Positions 9,648 through 63,566 of a DNA stretch of 64,000 nt are shown one piece after another. How positions within the stretch are numbered: position 1 is the first letter of the stretch; each line of letters opens with the position of its first letter. The notes beneath the pieces were generated by a model, which saw only the letters and a program-made list of their open reading frames with translations, was not told the DNA's origin and searched no databases. Both the position numbers and the translations under genes were made by a program. The DNA is from Polaribacter aquimarinus. GTDB lineage: Bacteria > Bacteroidota > Bacteroidia > Flavobacteriales > Flavobacteriaceae. The stretch lies in the NCBI RefSeq assembly GCF_003129485.1, contig NZ_QFFG01000002.1, positions 682,001 to 746,000 of the forward strand. Reading direction: 5' to 3'.

Positions 9648-11179
9648 CCCAACCATCCCTCTCTGTCCAAACTTCTATATTGTATGGCTTCTGCAATATG
9701 ATCAGGAGAAATGTTTTCTGTATTTGCTAAATCTGCAATAGTTCTTGAGACTTTTAAAATACGGTCATAAGCTCTGGCAGAAAGGTTTAATTTTTCCATT
9801 GCCGTTTTTAAAAGTGTTAGACTTTCTGGAGATAATTTACAAAATTCACGAATCTGTTTTACACTCATTTGTGCATTATAATGCACGTTTTCAAAGTTTT
9901 TAAAACGCTCAGATTGAATTTCTCTTGCAGCAGAAACTCGCTTTCTAATTTCTACAGAAGATTCTCCTTTTCGTTCTTCAGATAATTTTTCAAACGGAAC
10001 AGGAGTTACTTCTATATGAATGTCTATTCTATCTAATAAAGGTCCTGATATTTTACTCAAATAACGTTGCATTTCTTGTGGAGAAGAGGTCATTGGCGAG
10101 TTTGGATCATTAAAAAAACCTGACGGAGAAGGGTTCATGCTTGCCACCAACATAAAACTGCTTGGATAGGTTACTGTAAATTTTGCTCTAGAAATAGTTA
10201 CTTCTCTGTCTTCTAAAGGTTGACGCATTACTTCTAAAACTTCTCTTTTAAATTCTGGTAATTCGTCTAAAAACAAAACCCCATTATGAGATAAAGAAAT
10301 TTCTCCAGGTCTTGGATATTGTCCACCTCCAACAAGAGCAACATTTGAAATCGTGTGATGTGGACTTCTAAAAGGTCTTGCATACAATAATCCCTCATTT
10401 TTAGTTTTACCAACCACAGAATGAATTTTAGTAGTCTCTAATGCTTCGTGCAAAGTCATTGGTGGAAGTATAGAAGGTAATCGTTTTGCCAACATTGTTT
10501 TTCCAGACCCAGGAGGTCCAATCAGAATAATATTGTGCCCACCAGCAGCAGCAATTTCCATACAACGTTTTATAGATTCTTGTCCTTTTACATCAGAAAA
10601 ATCAAACTCAGGAAAATCGATGTTTTTATAAAATTCTGCTCTGGTATCAACAATCGTAGGTTCAATTTTTACATCACCATTAAAATGATTGATGACCTCC
10701 ATAATGTTGTTCACTCCTAAAACTTCTAAATTGTCTACAATGGCAGCTTCTTTAGCATTTTCTTTTGGTAAAATAAAATGTTTAAATCCTTCTTCTCTAG
10801 CTTTTATGGCAATTGGTAAAGCACCTTTTATTGGTTGTAAACTTCCGTCTAAAGAAAGTTCTCCCATAATAATATAATCACTGATGTTTTCGGATTTAAT
10901 TTGGTTAGAAGCTGCTAAAATTCCTGTGGCTAAAGTTAAATCATAAGAAGCGCCTTCTTTTCTAATATCAGCCGGAGCCATATTAATAATAATTTTCTTT
11001 CCAGGAAGTTTATAATTGTTATTGTTTAGTGCTGCTGAGATTCTGTAAGAGCTTTCGCTAACCGCTTTATCGGGTAAACCTACTAGGTGATAGCCAATTC
11101 CTTTATCAATATTTACTTCAACAGTAATTGTAGTGGCTTCAATACCAAAAACGGCAGAACCATAGACTTTAACAAGCAT
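9644..11179 (-). CDS. YifB/ComM family Mg-chelatase-like AAA+ ATPase
   Basis: A 511-residue AAA+ protein of the ComM/YifB family. In naturally competent species ComM is a branch-migration helicase acting on recombination intermediates. The order is an N-terminal Lon-protease-like fold ([20 protein letters not shown]), the Walker A loop [15 protein letters not shown] near residue 220, the Walker B region LFLDELPEF, and a C-terminal Mg-chelatase domain with [20 protein letters not shown] place the start at 11179 (MLVKVYGSA). The frame is open 48 bases further upstream, but that part overlaps the ppc terminator. Confidence 0.92.
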
Positions 11180-11218
11180 TCTTTTTTCTTTAAAAGTAAA
11201 AAAAAATAAGGCATAAAA

Positions 11219-11247
11219 AAAATGCAATCAAAAAATGATTGCATTTT
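11219..11247 (-). terminator. Terminator after ppc
   Basis: A perfect 12-bp stem AAAATGCAATCA/TGATTGCATTTT with an A5 loop, flanked by an A-run that reads as U on the minus transcript, 22 bases after the ppc stop. Confidence 0.75.
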
Positions 11248-11268
11248 ATAAATTTATTCCAAAAACTG

Positions 11269-13848
11269 TTACGCAGAGTTTCTACTTGCATTAATATTAC
11301 CAAATAAAGAACGCATAACCATTTTTTCGTAAACTTCTAACTCTTCTGAGTTAGCATCGGATTTTTGAAGCTCCTGAATTTTCTTTAGCGCATATTGCTG
11401 AATGGTTAAAAGTGGCAATACAATTTGCTCTCTAATCTCAATTGATGCTTTTCCTACAGGGAAGTTCTCCATTAACTCAGTATGACCAGTTAATTTTAAA
11501 AGTAATCTTTTAGTAGTTTTATATTCTTCATAGATTAATTTCCAGAATTCTCCAAACTCTTCATCTTCTGCCATATAAGAAGTTAAACCAAAGAAAGATT
11601 TTGTTAAGCTCATAACGCTATTCTCTAATAAAGTTCTCAGGAAATCTGAAGAATTGTAAAAATCTACTACTTCATCAAATCTATCAGTTTCTTCATATTT
11701 TTTTAAAGCAGTACCAACACCAAAGAAACCTGGAACATTTTGTTTTAACTGACTCCAACTTCCAACAAAAGGTATGGCTCTTAGTTGAGAGAAATCTAAA
11801 GTATCTGAGTTAGAACGTTTACTTGGTCTACTTCCAATATTGGTTTTTGCGTAGTATTTTAAAGTACTCATTCTCTCTAAATACGGTAAAAACATAGGAT
11901 GTTTTTTAAAGTCTACATAGGCTTGGTAACTGGTATTAGCCATATCATCCATTAACTTTCTATGTTCTTTATTTAGCTGATCTTTATTAAAAATATCATT
12001 TTTAATTCCAGAACTCAACAATTGTTCTAAGTTGTATTGAGATGATTGTATAGTACCAAAATTAGAACTAATGGTTTGTCCTTGTATGGTTAACTGAATT
12101 TCTTTATCCTCTATTGTTGGTCCTAAAGAAGCGTAAAACTGGTGTGTTTTTCCTCCTCCACGTGCTGGTGGACCTCCACGACCGTCGAAGAATATTACTT
12201 CAATATCAAATTCTCTAGAAACTTTTGTTAAAGCCTCTTTTGCTTTAAAAATACCCCAATTGGCCATTAAATAACCACCATCTTTAGTTCCATCAGAAAA
12301 ACCACACATAATAGTTTGTTTGTTTTTTCTTTTTGATAAATGATGTCTATACACTTTATTAGAGTACAAAGTACGCATTACTTCTTCTGCATTTTGCAAA
12401 TCTTCTACAGTTTCGAAAAGTGGAATTACATCTACTGGTAATTCACTTTCGAAACCACAAAGGTTTAACATTGCAAATGTTTCCATTACATTTAATGCAG
12501 TTTGGTTATTACTAATAATGTAACGATTTGCACCACGCTCTCCATTTCTTTGTTGAATGGTTTTAAGGGCATAAATAGATTCAATAGTTTTAACAGAAAC
12601 CTCATCTGTTAAAATACCTGGATCTACACTTCCTTTAACTGAAGAAAGAATTTTTATTTGTTCTTCTTCAGAAAGACTTAAGTAGTTTTTTGGAAAAGTA
12701 TTATCTCCTGTTTCTTGTAAATCTTTTACGATTTGAACAAATGCTTTATGATGCACTCTACTATCTTGTCTGATGTCTAAAGTTGCAAAATGGAATCCAA
12801 AAATTCTTACTTTATTGATAAAATCATTTAATTCTTCTACAAATAAAGATTGATGATCATTTACAATGATTTCTCTTGCTGCATATAATTCTTCTAAAAG
12901 AATTTTTTGAGAAAAATTAACTTTAGTATAACTTCTTACTACGTGTTTGTATAATCTTTTTTCTACACGTGCTAAAATATCTTGAACTCCATCAAAAGTA
13001 AAACGTCTTTTTAAACGTCTAACATCTCTGTAATAACTTCTTAATACAGTTTGACGCAGTCTTTCTGCAACATCTAGAGTAATTTGTGTTGTTACAAAAG
13101 GGTTTCCATCTCTATCACCACCAGGCCAAAAACCAAGATCAATAATTTCGTTATCTATTGGTTTTCCATCATAAATATGATGTTGTATATAATTATAGAT
13201 TTTTGGAACAGAATGATAAAATACGTGTTCTAAATACCAAACTAAACTTACAGCTTCATCAAAAGGAGTTGGTTTAGCTTTTTTGTAAAAAGGAGTTTTC
13301 CCTAATTGCGCCAACAATTTTTTAATCAATAATAAATCGTCTTTTTGTATTGCTTTGTCCAAGTCTGTAATAATCCCTAAAACAGAACCAGGATAAAATT
13401 GTGTTGGATGTGCAGTTAATACTATGCGTACTTTAAAATCTTCTAAATAAGCTTTAAGTTGATCTTTTTTATTGCTTAAAGTTGCAGATTCTTTAGAACT
13501 TCTTAAAGTACCAAAACCATCCATATTATTAACAATAGGGAAAGCTGCATCTTCAATAGCATCAAACAAAACCACTTGACGCTCTATAAATTGAATAAAA
13601 CGAAATAGTAAATCTGTTTTTTCTTTTTCTGATGGATTTTCTTGATATTTTTTAAAGAAATGTTCTATTATTTCTGTAGGGTTTTTCTCTAATTGAAAAC
13701 CTTTATCGCATACTTTGTGCAATAGTGGAAGTAAAACTCCAGTATCATCTATAGTATCAAATGGAAGTGTAGTAAAAATACTATTGTATATCTGATACTT
13801 AGAAAGTACATTTTCATTAAATCTCTGTAACTTGGGTAAACTGCTCAT
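11269..13848 (-). CDS. ppc: Phosphoenolpyruvate carboxylase
   Basis: Anaplerotic enzyme that carboxylates PEP with bicarbonate to oxaloacetate. The protein has 859 residues, close to the usual size. The catalytic signatures are LTAHPTQFYPG near residue 144 (catalytic His), FWPGGDRDGNPFVT near residue 240, and the glycine-rich FDGRGGPPARGGG loop near residue 555. The extreme C-terminus reads NASRNSA instead of the QNTG end of proteobacterial enzymes. It stands alone between the tilS gene and yifB, with its own terminator. Confidence 0.96.
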   Translation of the reverse strand: MSSLPKLQRFNENVLSKYQIYNSIFTTLPFDTIDDTGVLLPLLHKVCDKGFQLEKNPTEIIEHFFKKYQENPSEKEKTDLLFRFIQFIERQVVLFDAIEDAAFPIVNNMDGFGTLRSSKESATLSNKKDQLKAYLEDFKVRIVLTAHPTQFYPGSVLGIITDLDKAIQKDDLLLIKKLLAQLGKTPFYKKAKPTPFDEAVSLVWYLEHVFYHSVPKIYNYIQHHIYDGKPIDNEIIDLGFWPGGDRDGNPFVTTQITLDVAERLRQTVLRSYYRDVRRLKRRFTFDGVQDILARVEKRLYKHVVRSYTKVNFSQKILLEELYAAREIIVNDHQSLFVEELNDFINKVRIFGFHFATLDIRQDSRVHHKAFVQIVKDLQETGDNTFPKNYLSLSEEEQIKILSSVKGSVDPGILTDEVSVKTIESIYALKTIQQRNGERGANRYIISNNQTALNVMETFAMLNLCGFESELPVDVIPLFETVEDLQNAEEVMRTLYSNKVYRHHLSKRKNKQTIMCGFSDGTKDGGYLMANWGIFKAKEALTKVSREFDIEVIFFDGRGGPPARGGGKTHQFYASLGPTIEDKEIQLTIQGQTISSNFGTIQSSQYNLEQLLSSGIKNDIFNKDQLNKEHRKLMDDMANTSYQAYVDFKKHPMFLPYLERMSTLKYYAKTNIGSRPSKRSNSDTLDFSQLRAIPFVGSWSQLKQNVPGFFGVGTALKKYEETDRFDEVVDFYNSSDFLRTLLENSVMSLTKSFFGLTSYMAEDEEFGEFWKLIYEEYKTTKRLLLKLTGHTELMENFPVGKASIEIREQIVLPLLTIQQYALKKIQELQKSDANSEELEVYEKMVMRSLFGNINASRNSA

Positions 13849-34701: not shown

Positions 34702-35328
34702 ATGATTTGGTTGTCAGATAACATTGCTTTTCCTCCTTATGAGTTTACCACAGATGATGGTATTATTGCTCTAGGTGGAGATTTATCTGAAGAACGCCTA
34801 ATTTATGCCTACAAAAACGGAATTTTCCCTTGGTATTCTGAAGGCGAACCAATTGTTTGGTATTGCCCACATGATAGAATGGTTTTGTTTCCTGATGATT
34901 TAAAAGTATCTAAATCGATGCGAAATATCATCAATAGAAACCAATTTGTTATTACAGAAAACTCAGTTTTTAATGAAGTGATTTACAATTGCAAAAGCAT
35001 CGATAGAAATGATGGTTTTGGTACTTGGATTACAAATGATATGCAGCAAGCTTACATTAATTTACACCAAAAAGGAATTGCAAAATCCATTGAAGTTTGG
35101 TTAGATAATGAATTGGTTGGTGGTTTATACGGATTAGAAATAAACAATATTTTTTGCGGAGAAAGTATGTTTAGCAAAGTGTCTAATGCTTCTAAATTAG
35201 CTTTTATTCATTTGGTAAAAAAGAAAAATTACAAATTGATAGATTGCCAAGTGTATAATGAGCATTTGGCAAGTTTAGGAGCTAATGAAGTAGACAGAGA
35301 TCTGTTTTTGAAGATTTTAAAGGGTTGA
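34702..35328 (+). CDS. aat: Leucyl/phenylalanyl-tRNA-protein transferase
   Basis: N-degron enzyme that attaches Leu or Phe from charged tRNA to proteins with N-terminal Lys or Arg, marking them for ClpS/ClpAP. The 208-residue protein has FPWYSEGEPIVWYCPHDRMVLFP near the start and the signature GTWITNDMQQAYINLHQKG, then GGLYGLEINNIFCGESMFS. It is the last core gene before the cassette-like region beginning at 35338. Confidence 0.95.
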   Translation: MIWLSDNIAFPPYEFTTDDGIIALGGDLSEERLIYAYKNGIFPWYSEGEPIVWYCPHDRMVLFPDDLKVSKSMRNIINRNQFVITENSVFNEVIYNCKSIDRNDGFGTWITNDMQQAYINLHQKGIAKSIEVWLDNELVGGLYGLEINNIFCGESMFSKVSNASKLAFIHLVKKKNYKLIDCQVYNEHLASLGANEVDRDLFLKILKG

Positions 35329-35337
35329 TTTTTAAAA

Positions 35338-35468
35338 TTAGCTAACGGTTTGTGTATGAGCAGTAGCGGATTTTTAACCGCTATGTTTTCAGATAGCAAG
35401 ATACTTATTTAAACGCAAAAACGGTTCAAGTATGCACTCAAACCGCTATTGCTTATACACGTCTTAAG
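35338..35468. repeat. Structured boundary site 1 (attC-like)
   Basis: The site starts with box A, TTAGCTAACG (35338-35347). An arm 35352-35369 pairs over 18 bases with 35443-35460 through two G·T wobbles on the plus strand, and the site ends in box B', CGTCTTAAG (35460-35468). The loop holds a smaller hairpin TAGCGG/CCGCTA (35364-35382). Box A matches the far end of site 2 and box B' matches its near end. The layout (box, spacer, arm, loop, arm, box) is like an integron attC site, although the boxes are not canonical GTTRRRY. Confidence 0.6.
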
Positions 35469-35506
35469 TTTGTCTTTTACTAATTTTGATATATAATCAG
35501 AAAGAA

Positions 35507-35580
35507 TAAAAGAGAGAATTAAGGTTAATATACACGGTGAAGCTTTAGACTTCGACAACATTGGTAATCCTCTCTCTTTT
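35507..35580 (-). other. Stem-loop region downstream of the DUF2892 gene
   Basis: The intergenic stretch 35329-35620 has no credible gene. Apart from site 1 it contains this stem-loop. Arms AAAAGAGAGAATTA and TAATCCTCTCTCTTTT pair imperfectly around an inner hairpin (GAAGC/GACTTC, 35540-35554). On the minus transcript it lies about 40 bases beyond the DUF2892 stop and could act as a 3' end structure. It could also be a remnant of another mobile boundary. Confidence 0.45.
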
Positions 35581-35620
35581 CTACTTTTAAACACGTTCAG
35601 TTCTTTGTTGTGTGCTGCAT

Positions 35621-35830
35621 TTATTTTTCTTTGATTTTACTAGTTTTAATTCCAAATGGTGCATAAAGTGGACAAAAGTTAATCACACTTGTTAAAACGA
35701 ATACTCCTGCAAGTACCAATAAAATGATACCTAATGTACCTGATATTGTTCCTGTAAAATAAAGAATACAAACTATTGCAGCGATTATAACTCTTATAAT
35801 TCTGTCTGCTGAACCCATATTTTTTGTCAT
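35621..35830 (-). CDS. DUF2892 (YgaP-like) membrane protein
   Basis: A 69-residue protein with two membrane helices (about residues 11-26 and 30-48) and the DUF2892 pattern MGSADRIIRVIIAAIVCILYF then FCPLYAPFGIKTSK. Family members are stand-alone or fused to rhodanese domains, often near sulfide or metal-stress genes. It is the last of three minus-strand genes inside the cassette-like region and follows the Crp gene by 67 bases. Confidence 0.87.
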   Translation of the reverse strand: MTKNMGSADRIIRVIIAAIVCILYFTGTISGTLGIILLVLAGVFVLTSVINFCPLYAPFGIKTSKIKEK

Positions 35831-35897
35831 AATTTTAATTTTTAAAAGATTACCTTACAAAGATAAATAGTCGTTTACAGCTATGCAGTGACTATAG

Positions 35898-36524
35898 TCA
35901 CCATTCGTCAATAATTCTTATTTTACCTGAATTCTGTTCAACTTTCCCATCTGTTTCAAGCTTTTTTAATACTCTAGTAACTACTTCACGAGCAGTTCCT
36001 AATTCATTCGCTATTTGGGAATGACTCATATTTACAGAATTGTTATGACTTAATTCAGTTTTCTTTTTTAAATGGTCGAAAAGTCTTTTATCCATTTTGT
36101 CCAATAATAAGCTACCTATTGTGTCTAAAAGCTCCGAATATCTCAGATTAAACTGATTGTAGAAAAGTTCGTTAAAGTCAGGATATTCTTTTAACCAGGT
36201 AGGTAAAAAATGAACAGGTAATAAAAGGATGGTTGAATCTTCTTCCGTTTTTGCAAATACTTTGCTTGGTGTGTTTTTTAAAGCCGCATAAAAAGACATT
36301 ACACAGCTTTGGGCAGGTTCAATGTAGTAGAGTAGTAATTCTTTCTCATCAAATCTAGAATAAACATTTATAAGACCATTAACGACAATAGGTAAAACTT
36401 TGACATACTGATGTTCCCTTAAAATTTCAGTTCCTTTTGGGAATTCCTTGAGGGTGGATTCTTGCAGTATTTTTTCAATCAGATCAGGTTTTAAAAAAGA
36501 TAATATTCTTCTGTCAAGTTCCAT
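35898..36524 (-). CDS. Crp/Fnr-family transcriptional regulator
   Basis: A 208-residue regulator with an N-terminal cyclic-nucleotide-binding-like fold (about residues 15-125, FPKGTEILREHQYVKVLPIVVNGLINVY) and a C-terminal winged helix (SHSQIANELGTAREVVTRVLKKLE). No Cys cluster typical of an oxygen-sensing FNR is visible, and the cAMP-contact residues are not conserved. It lies 3 bases after the CDF transporter gene and probably regulates the local operon. Confidence 0.9.
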   Translation of the reverse strand: MELDRRILSFLKPDLIEKILQESTLKEFPKGTEILREHQYVKVLPIVVNGLINVYSRFDEKELLLYYIEPAQSCVMSFYAALKNTPSKVFAKTEEDSTILLLPVHFLPTWLKEYPDFNELFYNQFNLRYSELLDTIGSLLLDKMDKRLFDHLKKKTELSHNNSVNMSHSQIANELGTAREVVTRVLKKLETDGKVEQNSGKIRIIDEW

Positions 36525-36527
36525 TCT

Positions 36528-37397
36528 TTATTTATCTGGTTCAATGTGGATTAAGACGTGTCCTAAACTTGGTATTTCATTTCGTAAATGGTCCTTTAAT
36601 TTATGTGCAATATCGTGCCCATCCTTAACAGAAATTACCCCATTAACTATTGCGTGTAAATCAACGTGGTATTTCATCCCTGCTTTTCGAATAAAACATT
36701 TCTCTGTACCAACTATACCTTTCACTTTTAAAGATTCTTCTCGAATTTCTTCCAATAGGTCATCATATAAATGCTCATCCATAACTTCTCCTAAAGCAGG
36801 TCTAAAAATCAAATAACTATTGTATAAAATAAAAGCAGAAGCTAATAAAGCTGCCCAATCGTCAGCAGTTTCATATCCTTTTCCGAAAATTAAAGCGATA
36901 GAAATTCCTATGAATGCCATAATTGAAGTAATTGCATCACTTCTATGGTGCCAAGCATCTGCCTTGAGTGAAGTACTATTTGTCTCCTTACTTTTTTTAA
37001 TTACTATTCTAAAGGACACTTCTTTCCATATGATAATTGCACCAAGAACAATCAAAGTCCAAGATTTTGGAACCTTATGAGGTATCTGAATATTTTGAAT
37101 GCTTTCATAGGCAATAATAGTTGCTGATGTTACAAGAAAAGCTACTACTAAGAATGTTATTAGCGGTTCAATTTTTCCGTGACCGTATGGATGATTTTTG
37201 TCTGCTGGTCGTTTGGCATATTTTAAACCAAATAGTACAAGTAGAGAAGAGAATATATCAGTTGTTGATTCTATTGCATCAGCGATGAGCGCATATGAAT
37301 TACCAAAGAATCCTGAAAGCCCTTTAATCAAAGCTAAACTGGTGTTTCCAATTATGCTAAAATATGCAGTTCGTATTGCAGTTTGTTCGTTATTCAT
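36528..37397 (-). CDS. Cation diffusion facilitator (CDF) efflux transporter
   Basis: Divalent-metal/proton antiporter of 289 residues with about six helices and a cytoplasmic C-terminal domain. Helix 2 has the family DAIESTTDIFSS, and HPYGHGKIEPL follows. Helix 5 has KADAWHHRSDAITS, where the DxxxD/HxxxD residues form the transport site. The C-terminal domain reads VDLHAIVNGVISVKDGHDIA. The His/Asp pattern would suit zinc or iron, but specificity cannot be fixed. It is the first gene of the three-gene cassette operon. Confidence 0.92.
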   Translation of the reverse strand: MNNEQTAIRTAYFSIIGNTSLALIKGLSGFFGNSYALIADAIESTTDIFSSLLVLFGLKYAKRPADKNHPYGHGKIEPLITFLVVAFLVTSATIIAYESIQNIQIPHKVPKSWTLIVLGAIIIWKEVSFRIVIKKSKETNSTSLKADAWHHRSDAITSIMAFIGISIALIFGKGYETADDWAALLASAFILYNSYLIFRPALGEVMDEHLYDDLLEEIREESLKVKGIVGTEKCFIRKAGMKYHVDLHAIVNGVISVKDGHDIAHKLKDHLRNEIPSLGHVLIHIEPDK

Positions 37398-37420
37398 TCA
37401 GTTTTTCAGATTGTAAACAA

Positions 37421-37472
37421 CTTAAGACGAATATGAGGTCGTTTTTAATGACTTATATTCGGCGTTAGCTAA
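37421..37472. repeat. Structured boundary site 2 (attC-like)
   Basis: Box B, CTTAAGACG (37421-37429), is followed by an arm 37429-37440 pairing with 37450-37460 around a 9-base loop, then box A', CGTTAGCTAA (37463-37472). The plus-strand fold contains one G·T pair and one extrahelical G, features also seen in attC bottom strands. Box A' is the exact reverse complement of box A of site 1, and box B is the exact reverse complement of box B' of site 1. Confidence 0.6.
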
Positions 37473-37568: not shown

Positions 37569-38321
37569 TTATATTTTTCGCAAGTAAATATCTCCGCTTA
37601 TAGTATTTAATTTTAAAGAAGCGGTTCCTTTTTTAATCGTTGCTACTATTTTAGAGCCATAACTTCTTTTCTTTTTATTTTCATTAAAATCGATATCTAA
37701 ATCAGAATAAATGCCACCTGTTAGAGTTTTTGCTTCAAATTTAGCATCAGCAACAAAAATGTCAATATCACCACTAATGGTTTTTAATCGCATTTCTTTA
37801 GAGTGTTTTTTTACGGTAATATTACCGCTAATTAGATCTAAATTTAAGACGCCTGCATAATTTTCTGCCACCACACTTCCAGAAATGCTTTTTACTTTTA
37901 ATTCCATTTTTTTAGGAACATAAATTACGTAGTTTACAATATTACTGTGCTTATGGCTGTGGCAATTATCATCATCTTTTTTGCTGTCTTTATCATCGCC
38001 TTTATGCGAATGTTTATGACTGTAATAGCTTCTGTATTTCTTAAAATAATCTCCATAATCTGAGTTTATTTTTAACATTCCGCCAATGTTATCTGTTTTT
38101 AGAGAAAAGTAATCATTGTGTTCGTTGTCATCCAAATTAACAGTAGCTTCAACAGAAATTTCGTTTTTATTCCAGTTTTTAATAATGATGTTATTTGCGA
38201 ATTTTAAGTGAACATAAACGTTTTCAACGTTATTGCTTTTTACATTTTTTGTTACTTTTTTTTGTGCCGTTAGGTTACTAAAAGTCAATAGTAATCCTAT
38301 GAAGAAGAGATGTCTTTTCAT
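37569..38321 (-). CDS. DUF4097-type exported beta-helix protein (second copy)
   Basis: A 250-residue protein with a signal peptide (to LTAQ). The body has repeated strands of the DUF4097/DUF2807 kind, such as LKVKSISGSVVAENYAGVL, DLISGNITVKK and LKTISGDIDIFVA, which build a beta-helix. A His/Asp-rich insert (about residues 95-125, SHKHSHKGDDKDSKKDDDN) could bind metal. It is last in the sigma/anti-sigma operon and ends YLRKI, like the YLRKK end of its neighbour. Function is unknown. Confidence 0.8.
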   Translation of the reverse strand: MKRHLFFIGLLLTFSNLTAQKKVTKNVKSNNVENVYVHLKFANNIIIKNWNKNEISVEATVNLDDNEHNDYFSLKTDNIGGMLKINSDYGDYFKKYRSYYSHKHSHKGDDKDSKKDDDNCHSHKHSNIVNYVIYVPKKMELKVKSISGSVVAENYAGVLNLDLISGNITVKKHSKEMRLKTISGDIDIFVADAKFEAKTLTGGIYSDLDIDFNENKKKRSYGSKIVATIKKGTASLKLNTISGDIYLRKI

Positions 38322-63529: not shown

Positions 63530-63566
63530 TTAGCTAACGTGTTGTTATAAGGTTTGTTAGCCTAAG
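63530..63566. repeat. Compact third copy of the boundary box
   Basis: TTAGCTAACG (63530-63539) is identical to box A at 35338, and is followed by six bases and TATAAG, then GTTAGCCTAAG (63556-63566), which is nearly complementary to box A. The arms of sites 1 and 2 are missing or shortened. It lies between the stop of a plus-strand core gene and, 4 bases away, the stop of a minus-strand accessory gene. Confidence 0.5.

Follow-up and report, generated by a model that had tools for sequence, protein, structure and literature searches.

A three-gene insertion beside aat in Polaribacter aquimarinus is probably a cassette of a Bacteroidota integron-like system

The window (the whole analysed stretch of 64,000 nucleotides) contains, at 35338-37472, an insertion of three genes flanked by two hairpin sites (Table 1). 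The gene content recognized from the letters alone in the original prediction (DUF2892, Crp/Fnr, and CDF) is confirmed by Pfam matches, and the genes do read toward their attC. The four exchanged boxes described at the ends are all present: TTAGCTAACG at 35338, CGTCTTAAG at 35460, CTTAAGACG at 37421, and CGTTAGCTAA at 37463. The boxes named A and A' are exact reverse complements in their letters, but this is partly automatic, as TTAGCTAA and CTTAAG are self-complementary. Taken by itself, the A/A' and B/B' pairing of this locus is thus less strong evidence than the pairing in arrays. Box B' (GTCTTAAG) has GTC, where the array boxes have GTT. In two other species (G061 and G110), orthologues of the CDF gene (84% identity) occur in arrays as single-gene cassettes whose boxes match.

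Table 1. Features of the inserted interval and its neighbours, in window coordinates. G005 is a relative with an empty site; R1 is a covariance model of array sites.
Feature	Position	Strand	Evidence
aat (leucyl/phenylalanyl-tRNA-protein transferase), left chromosomal neighbour	34702..35328	+	Pfam PF03588; orthologue adjoins the G005 empty site
Chromosomal half of the target, outer core TTAGCTAA (minus strand: G^TTAGCTAA)	35338..35345	.	one copy in the G005 empty site
Site 1, putative attC of the three-gene cassette	35337..35467	-	R1, 69.1 bits, E=1.8e-14, site 1 held out of training
Three-gene cassette	35346..37427	-	10-base pairing between its start box GTCTTAAGTT (G at 37428, minus strand) and its end box AACTTAAGAC
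YgaP-like transmembrane protein (DUF2892 of the prediction)	35621..35830	-	PF11127, E=2.9e-22
Crp/Fnr-family regulator	35898..36524	-	PF13545, E=3.6e-11
CDF cation efflux transporter	36528..37397	-	PF01545 and PF16916
Site 2, short attC-like hairpin, boxes TTAGCTAAC and GTCTTAAG	37428..37472	-	fold z -3.3 on the plus strand; R1 20.8 bits; absent from G005
DUF4097 protein, right chromosomal neighbour	37569..38321	-	PF13349; 95% identical orthologue beside the G005 empty site

A second TTAGCTAACG, followed by TGTTGTTATAAGGTTTGTTAGCC, is observed at 63530-63565, directly after the stop codon of a gene. It is possibly a bare target or a decayed short site, and it has no covariance-model match.

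Both arms had been described as folding better on the plus strand. This holds for site 2 (plus -8.6 against minus -6.0 kcal/mol; z -3.3 against -2.0). In site 1, the preference is slight over 133 nt (plus -16.6, minus -15.4), and for the inner 114 nt the two strands fold equally well. The single-sequence fold of site 1 is unimpressive, and a covariance model was used instead. The model, R1, was trained on 51 array sites with the window sites left out, and it recovered the held-out site 1 (Table 1). The hairpin of site 1 is more than chance. Site 2 matches R1 weakly (E=0.013). The Rfam search returned no matching family, only a weak chance match. The loop of site 2 (ATTAAAAACG) resembles a similar loop in short attC sites of locus L083 (G130), and no close relative of site 2 was found among the fetched loci; site 2 is probably a gene-less or decayed cassette. 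Short attC sites coexist with the long class in L083 and in L086 (G059), where one 55-nt site occurs three times.

The integrase, suggested to lie elsewhere in the genome, was sought with a search of the integron-integrase family. A tyrosine recombinase of 371 aa is encoded on another contig of the same genome (G000:C1:826885-827997), and it adjoins a cassette array. The array consists of about 13 units, all in one direction, each with one or more genes followed by a hairpin (attC) of mostly 123-125 nt, and it extends to the end of the contig. More array fragments are found at the ends of other contigs, and two small contigs are made up of them entirely. Genome-wide, 48 strong sites were detected, which are array fragments at contig ends and about nine dispersed singles, including the one in the window. 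The prediction of an integron-type cassette was right in kind.

In those cassettes of this array that were read by eye, the first 8-10 bases (GTTNNNNNNN) are reverse-complementary to the last box of the cassette itself, and the box across the hairpin is not their partner. Such pairing matches the A/B logic of the original prediction. In 185 of the 211 cassettes in array loci of 21 genomes, the start box pairs with the cassette's own end box (R'') over 9 bases or more, compared with 1.8% for random pairs and 3% within one site, in agreement with the proposed exchange at G^T. The hairpins in these loci are oriented on the integrase strand in 255 cases and on the opposite strand in none. The longest ORF opposes the array direction in 26 of 190 cassettes. 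Behind the integrase gene, a core ATATAA-N-N-A^GTT is conserved in about 25 loci, and the first cassette starts there, which points, on sequence grounds, to an attI next to the integrase gene.

The 51-site alignment reveals a 16-bp attC stem with compensatory changes. Two fixed pairs are A.C on the top strand and G.T on the bottom strand, in 40 and 50 of the 51 sites, respectively. Across the whole alignment, the G.T cells number 102 for the bottom strand against 3 for the top. The hairpins are imperfect, and the bottom strand is the more stable one in 114 of 120 sites. The plus strand of the window is the bottom strand, as had been read from the direction of the genes. No extrahelical base is fixed in the 16-bp stem, and the strand bias in silico appears to stem from the two G.T wobbles, not from extrahelical bases. 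The I2 domain is what accommodates extrahelical bases in classical integrons (PMC4792948). The GTT of the boxes is nearly constant, and many boxes read GTTGTGC or GTTGGCA compared with the canonical RYYYAAC/GTTRRRY.

The insertion was expected to be missing from a close relative, and it is. G005 has the closest aat among the relatives sampled (89% identical), and its DUF4097 gene product is 95% identical. Its aat-DUF4097 intergenic region reads TTTTTAAAATTAGCTAACGTTATATTTTTTTGAG, with AAAATTAGCTAACGTTATATTTTTTTGAG at the target and no arm; the locus holds one single TTAGCTAACGTT without a hairpin. The window has the same letters, interrupted by 2.1 kb, and lacks one base at the right junction. 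The lack of an arm in G005 indicates that the target was a bare GTT core, and that the hairpin of site 2 is inserted DNA that arrived with the insertion. Site 2 arrived together with or before the three-gene cassette; one two-cassette circle and two successive insertions look alike. On the minus strand, the target (AATATAAC directly before GTT) seems to resemble the attI core of the Bacteroidota system.

These relatives bear on the order of events originally proposed, in which a lone chromosomal attC with matched ends (A-arm-A', that is, TTAGCTAACG-arm-CGTTAGCTAA) resided between aat and the sigma operon before the three-gene cassette entered. Site 2 would indeed be perfect if box A stood at both of its ends, and cassettes of the Bacteroidota system do occur behind other attC sites. 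However, G005 has the same two neighbours and reads AAAATTAGCTAACGTTATATTTTTTTGAG in place of the expected empty site, and no arm is present in G085 and G004, in which the DUF4097 gene is also beside aat. The arm could have been resident only since the split from G005. This order is unlikely.

A second dispersed insertion in the same genome (L189), of about 1.1 kb, is also absent from G005; its flanks are diverged and the junction is not base-exact. Including this one, eight further off-array attC sites (L187-L194) are located on contigs C18, C1, C15, C14, and C17. Several of them have GTTAGCTAA, GTTAGCGAA, GTTAACGAA, or GTTAAACAA as the outer core, unlike most array boxes. An AAACTC motif before off-array insertions was noticed post hoc and was rejected; it is present in only 3 of 58 starts with no detected attC before them, and those starts are mostly attI or missed attC.

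The integrase is not an IntI in the strict sense. It lacks the IntI-specific insert (I2), with 69-70 residues between two catalytic motifs compared with 111 in IntI1, and it scores 189 bits against the NCBI integron integrase model TIGR02249, below the cut-off of 265. The best family match is NF040815 (Xer-type/XerA; 211 bits, cut-off 220), and the closest solved structures are XerA (5hxy) and IntI4 (2a3v). Structure prediction gives the first 75 residues of the integrase a fold of their own (pLDDT 88), an N-terminal domain. This domain (L039:2886-3110) weakly matches HARP/XPB with Foldseek (E 0.05-0.2) and, in one member, Pfam HARP (E=7e-4); a PDB sequence search with its profile returned nothing meaningful, and some relatives of the integrase have no such domain. 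The resemblance to these DNA-structure-recognition domains is suggestive only. In an exploratory tree with one IntI sequence, IntI1 falls inside the Bacteroidota integrase group (modest support, about 0.86). The group may be the stock from which IntI arose, and both ancestry and convergence fit this tree.

It is very unlikely that the cassettes are real but moved by another recombinase, such as XerC/XerD or an unseen IntI, with the linked integrase as a passenger. The discrepancy between attC-like sites, found in 116 of the 118 genomes of the genus, and integrase homologues (E<=1e-40), found in 77 of them, is what this explanation would account for, although many of these assemblies are fragmentary. 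On the other hand, the integrase gene directly precedes the array, and the array is on the integrase strand, in 21 of the 21 loci examined from the genus and in several other families. The first cassette begins at the conserved core behind the integrase gene, and no IntI above the TIGR02249 cut-off was detected in any of the 118 genomes. The presence of TTAGCTAA on both sides of the insert, with a single copy in G005, would suit a transposon or insertion sequence that duplicated an 8-bp target. This origin is less likely still, since the insert carries three genes and no transposase and ends in attC-type hairpins, one of them from the family that ends hundreds of array cassettes.

The interval is best explained as a gene cassette of a Bacteroidota integron-like system that inserted outside its array (probability about 0.9). 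The system would consist of a tyrosine recombinase, an attI core shortly downstream, and an array of gene-plus-attC cassettes. By analogy with integrons, the integrase is presumed to recombine folded single-stranded bottom strands of attC. Excision would join the start box of a cassette to its own end box in a circle, whose integration target would be attI, a different attC, or, occasionally, some other GTT core. The circle would be opened between G and TT, so that each linear site carries the outer box of its neighbour. In the window, one circle, or two in succession, would have entered the GTTAGCTAA core between aat and the DUF4097 gene, leaving the short attC and the cassette with the YgaP-like, Crp/Fnr, and CDF genes.

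Some arrays in the genus exceed 100 kb. In the class, integrase relatives (E<=1e-60) are found in 220 of 396 genomes, and arrays beside them are observed in several other families and on a Chryseobacterium plasmid. Many integrase genes of the class are no more than a few hundred bases away from the end of a contig, a pattern that assemblies broken at repetitive arrays would produce. With IntegronFinder 2.0, Salinibacter ruber was the sole case of a complete integron reported from Bacteroidetes proper (PMC9024848). The large Bacteroidota system is apparently undescribed in the openly licensed PMC literature. One genome (G001) has two integrase-array copies about 110 kb apart (L074 and L075). 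In L039, a 3.7-kb cassette (10185-13570) carries a cytosine-5 DNA methylase and an MvaI/BcnI-type restriction enzyme, and another cassette carries a CDI immunity-type protein.

The system appears to be a source of tet(X), the tigecycline-resistance gene, as judged by comparison of L259 (G344), L251 (NZ_CP104735.1), and L253 (FJ012881.1). In G344, a Bacteroidia array includes a gene for a Tet(X) with 86% identity to Tet(X3); it forms a cassette flanked by attC sites, GTTATGTGCC - gene - GGCACATAAC, and the next cassette contains an SMR-like gene. In pJAT2044, an Acinetobacter plasmid, tet(X3) is preceded by a truncated integrase relative (TnpF). The two sequences agree at 60 of 60 positions from GTTATGTGCC onward and at 18 of 60 before it, which indicates an identical cassette boundary. 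Tet(X) homologues in G312 and G052 (47-62% identical) have no clear attC neighbours. The gene beside tet(X) has been named xerD, and whether it moves tet(X) was posed as a question (PMC7473080); the cassette boundary offers a concrete answer.

A broader proposal, held tentatively, is that this is a second lineage of integrons that is widespread among Bacteroidota, that G.T wobbles and a HARP-like domain take the place of extrahelical bases and of the I2 helix in selecting the folded bottom strand of its attC, and that this lineage is possibly the stock of IntI and supplied tet(X) to Acinetobacter plasmids. If true, an integrase lacking I2 acts on sites lacking fixed extrahelical bases, and the link between the two features is directly testable.

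Among known systems, the 'xerD'/TnpF beside tet(X) (PMC7473080) is a truncated relative of the Bacteroidota integrase, with 51.8% identity across residues 145-371; the plasmid copy is missing its beginning, and a degenerate attC follows tet(X3). The Xer-type simple tyrosine recombinases of NF040815 ('site-specific tyrosine recombinase/integron integrase') are the best family match, but the Bacteroidota integrase is linked to cassette arrays and has the additional N-terminal domain. The insertion in the window resembles attG insertion (Loot et al. 2024), in which, as far as the citing text (PMC12901181) relates, a cassette enters a hairpin-less GTT core outside the integron and the right-hand attC gains a chromosomal outer box; that text reports it for IntI, whereas the integrase here is of another type. 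Sedentary chromosomal integrons (superintegrons) of Vibrio are alike in having the integrase at one end, a long and mostly one-direction array with the first cassette at attI, a homogeneous attC family across a genus, G^TT crossover, and a bottom strand that folds better. In contrast to them, the Bacteroidota integrase lacks the IntI insert, scores below TIGR02249, has an extra N-terminal domain, and is co-directional with its array, while the boxes pair over about 10 bases, and two fixed G.T pairs rather than fixed extrahelical bases appear to account for the strand asymmetry. In the strict sense, the system would not be counted as an integron because of the integrase domain, but its anatomy suggests that it works like one.
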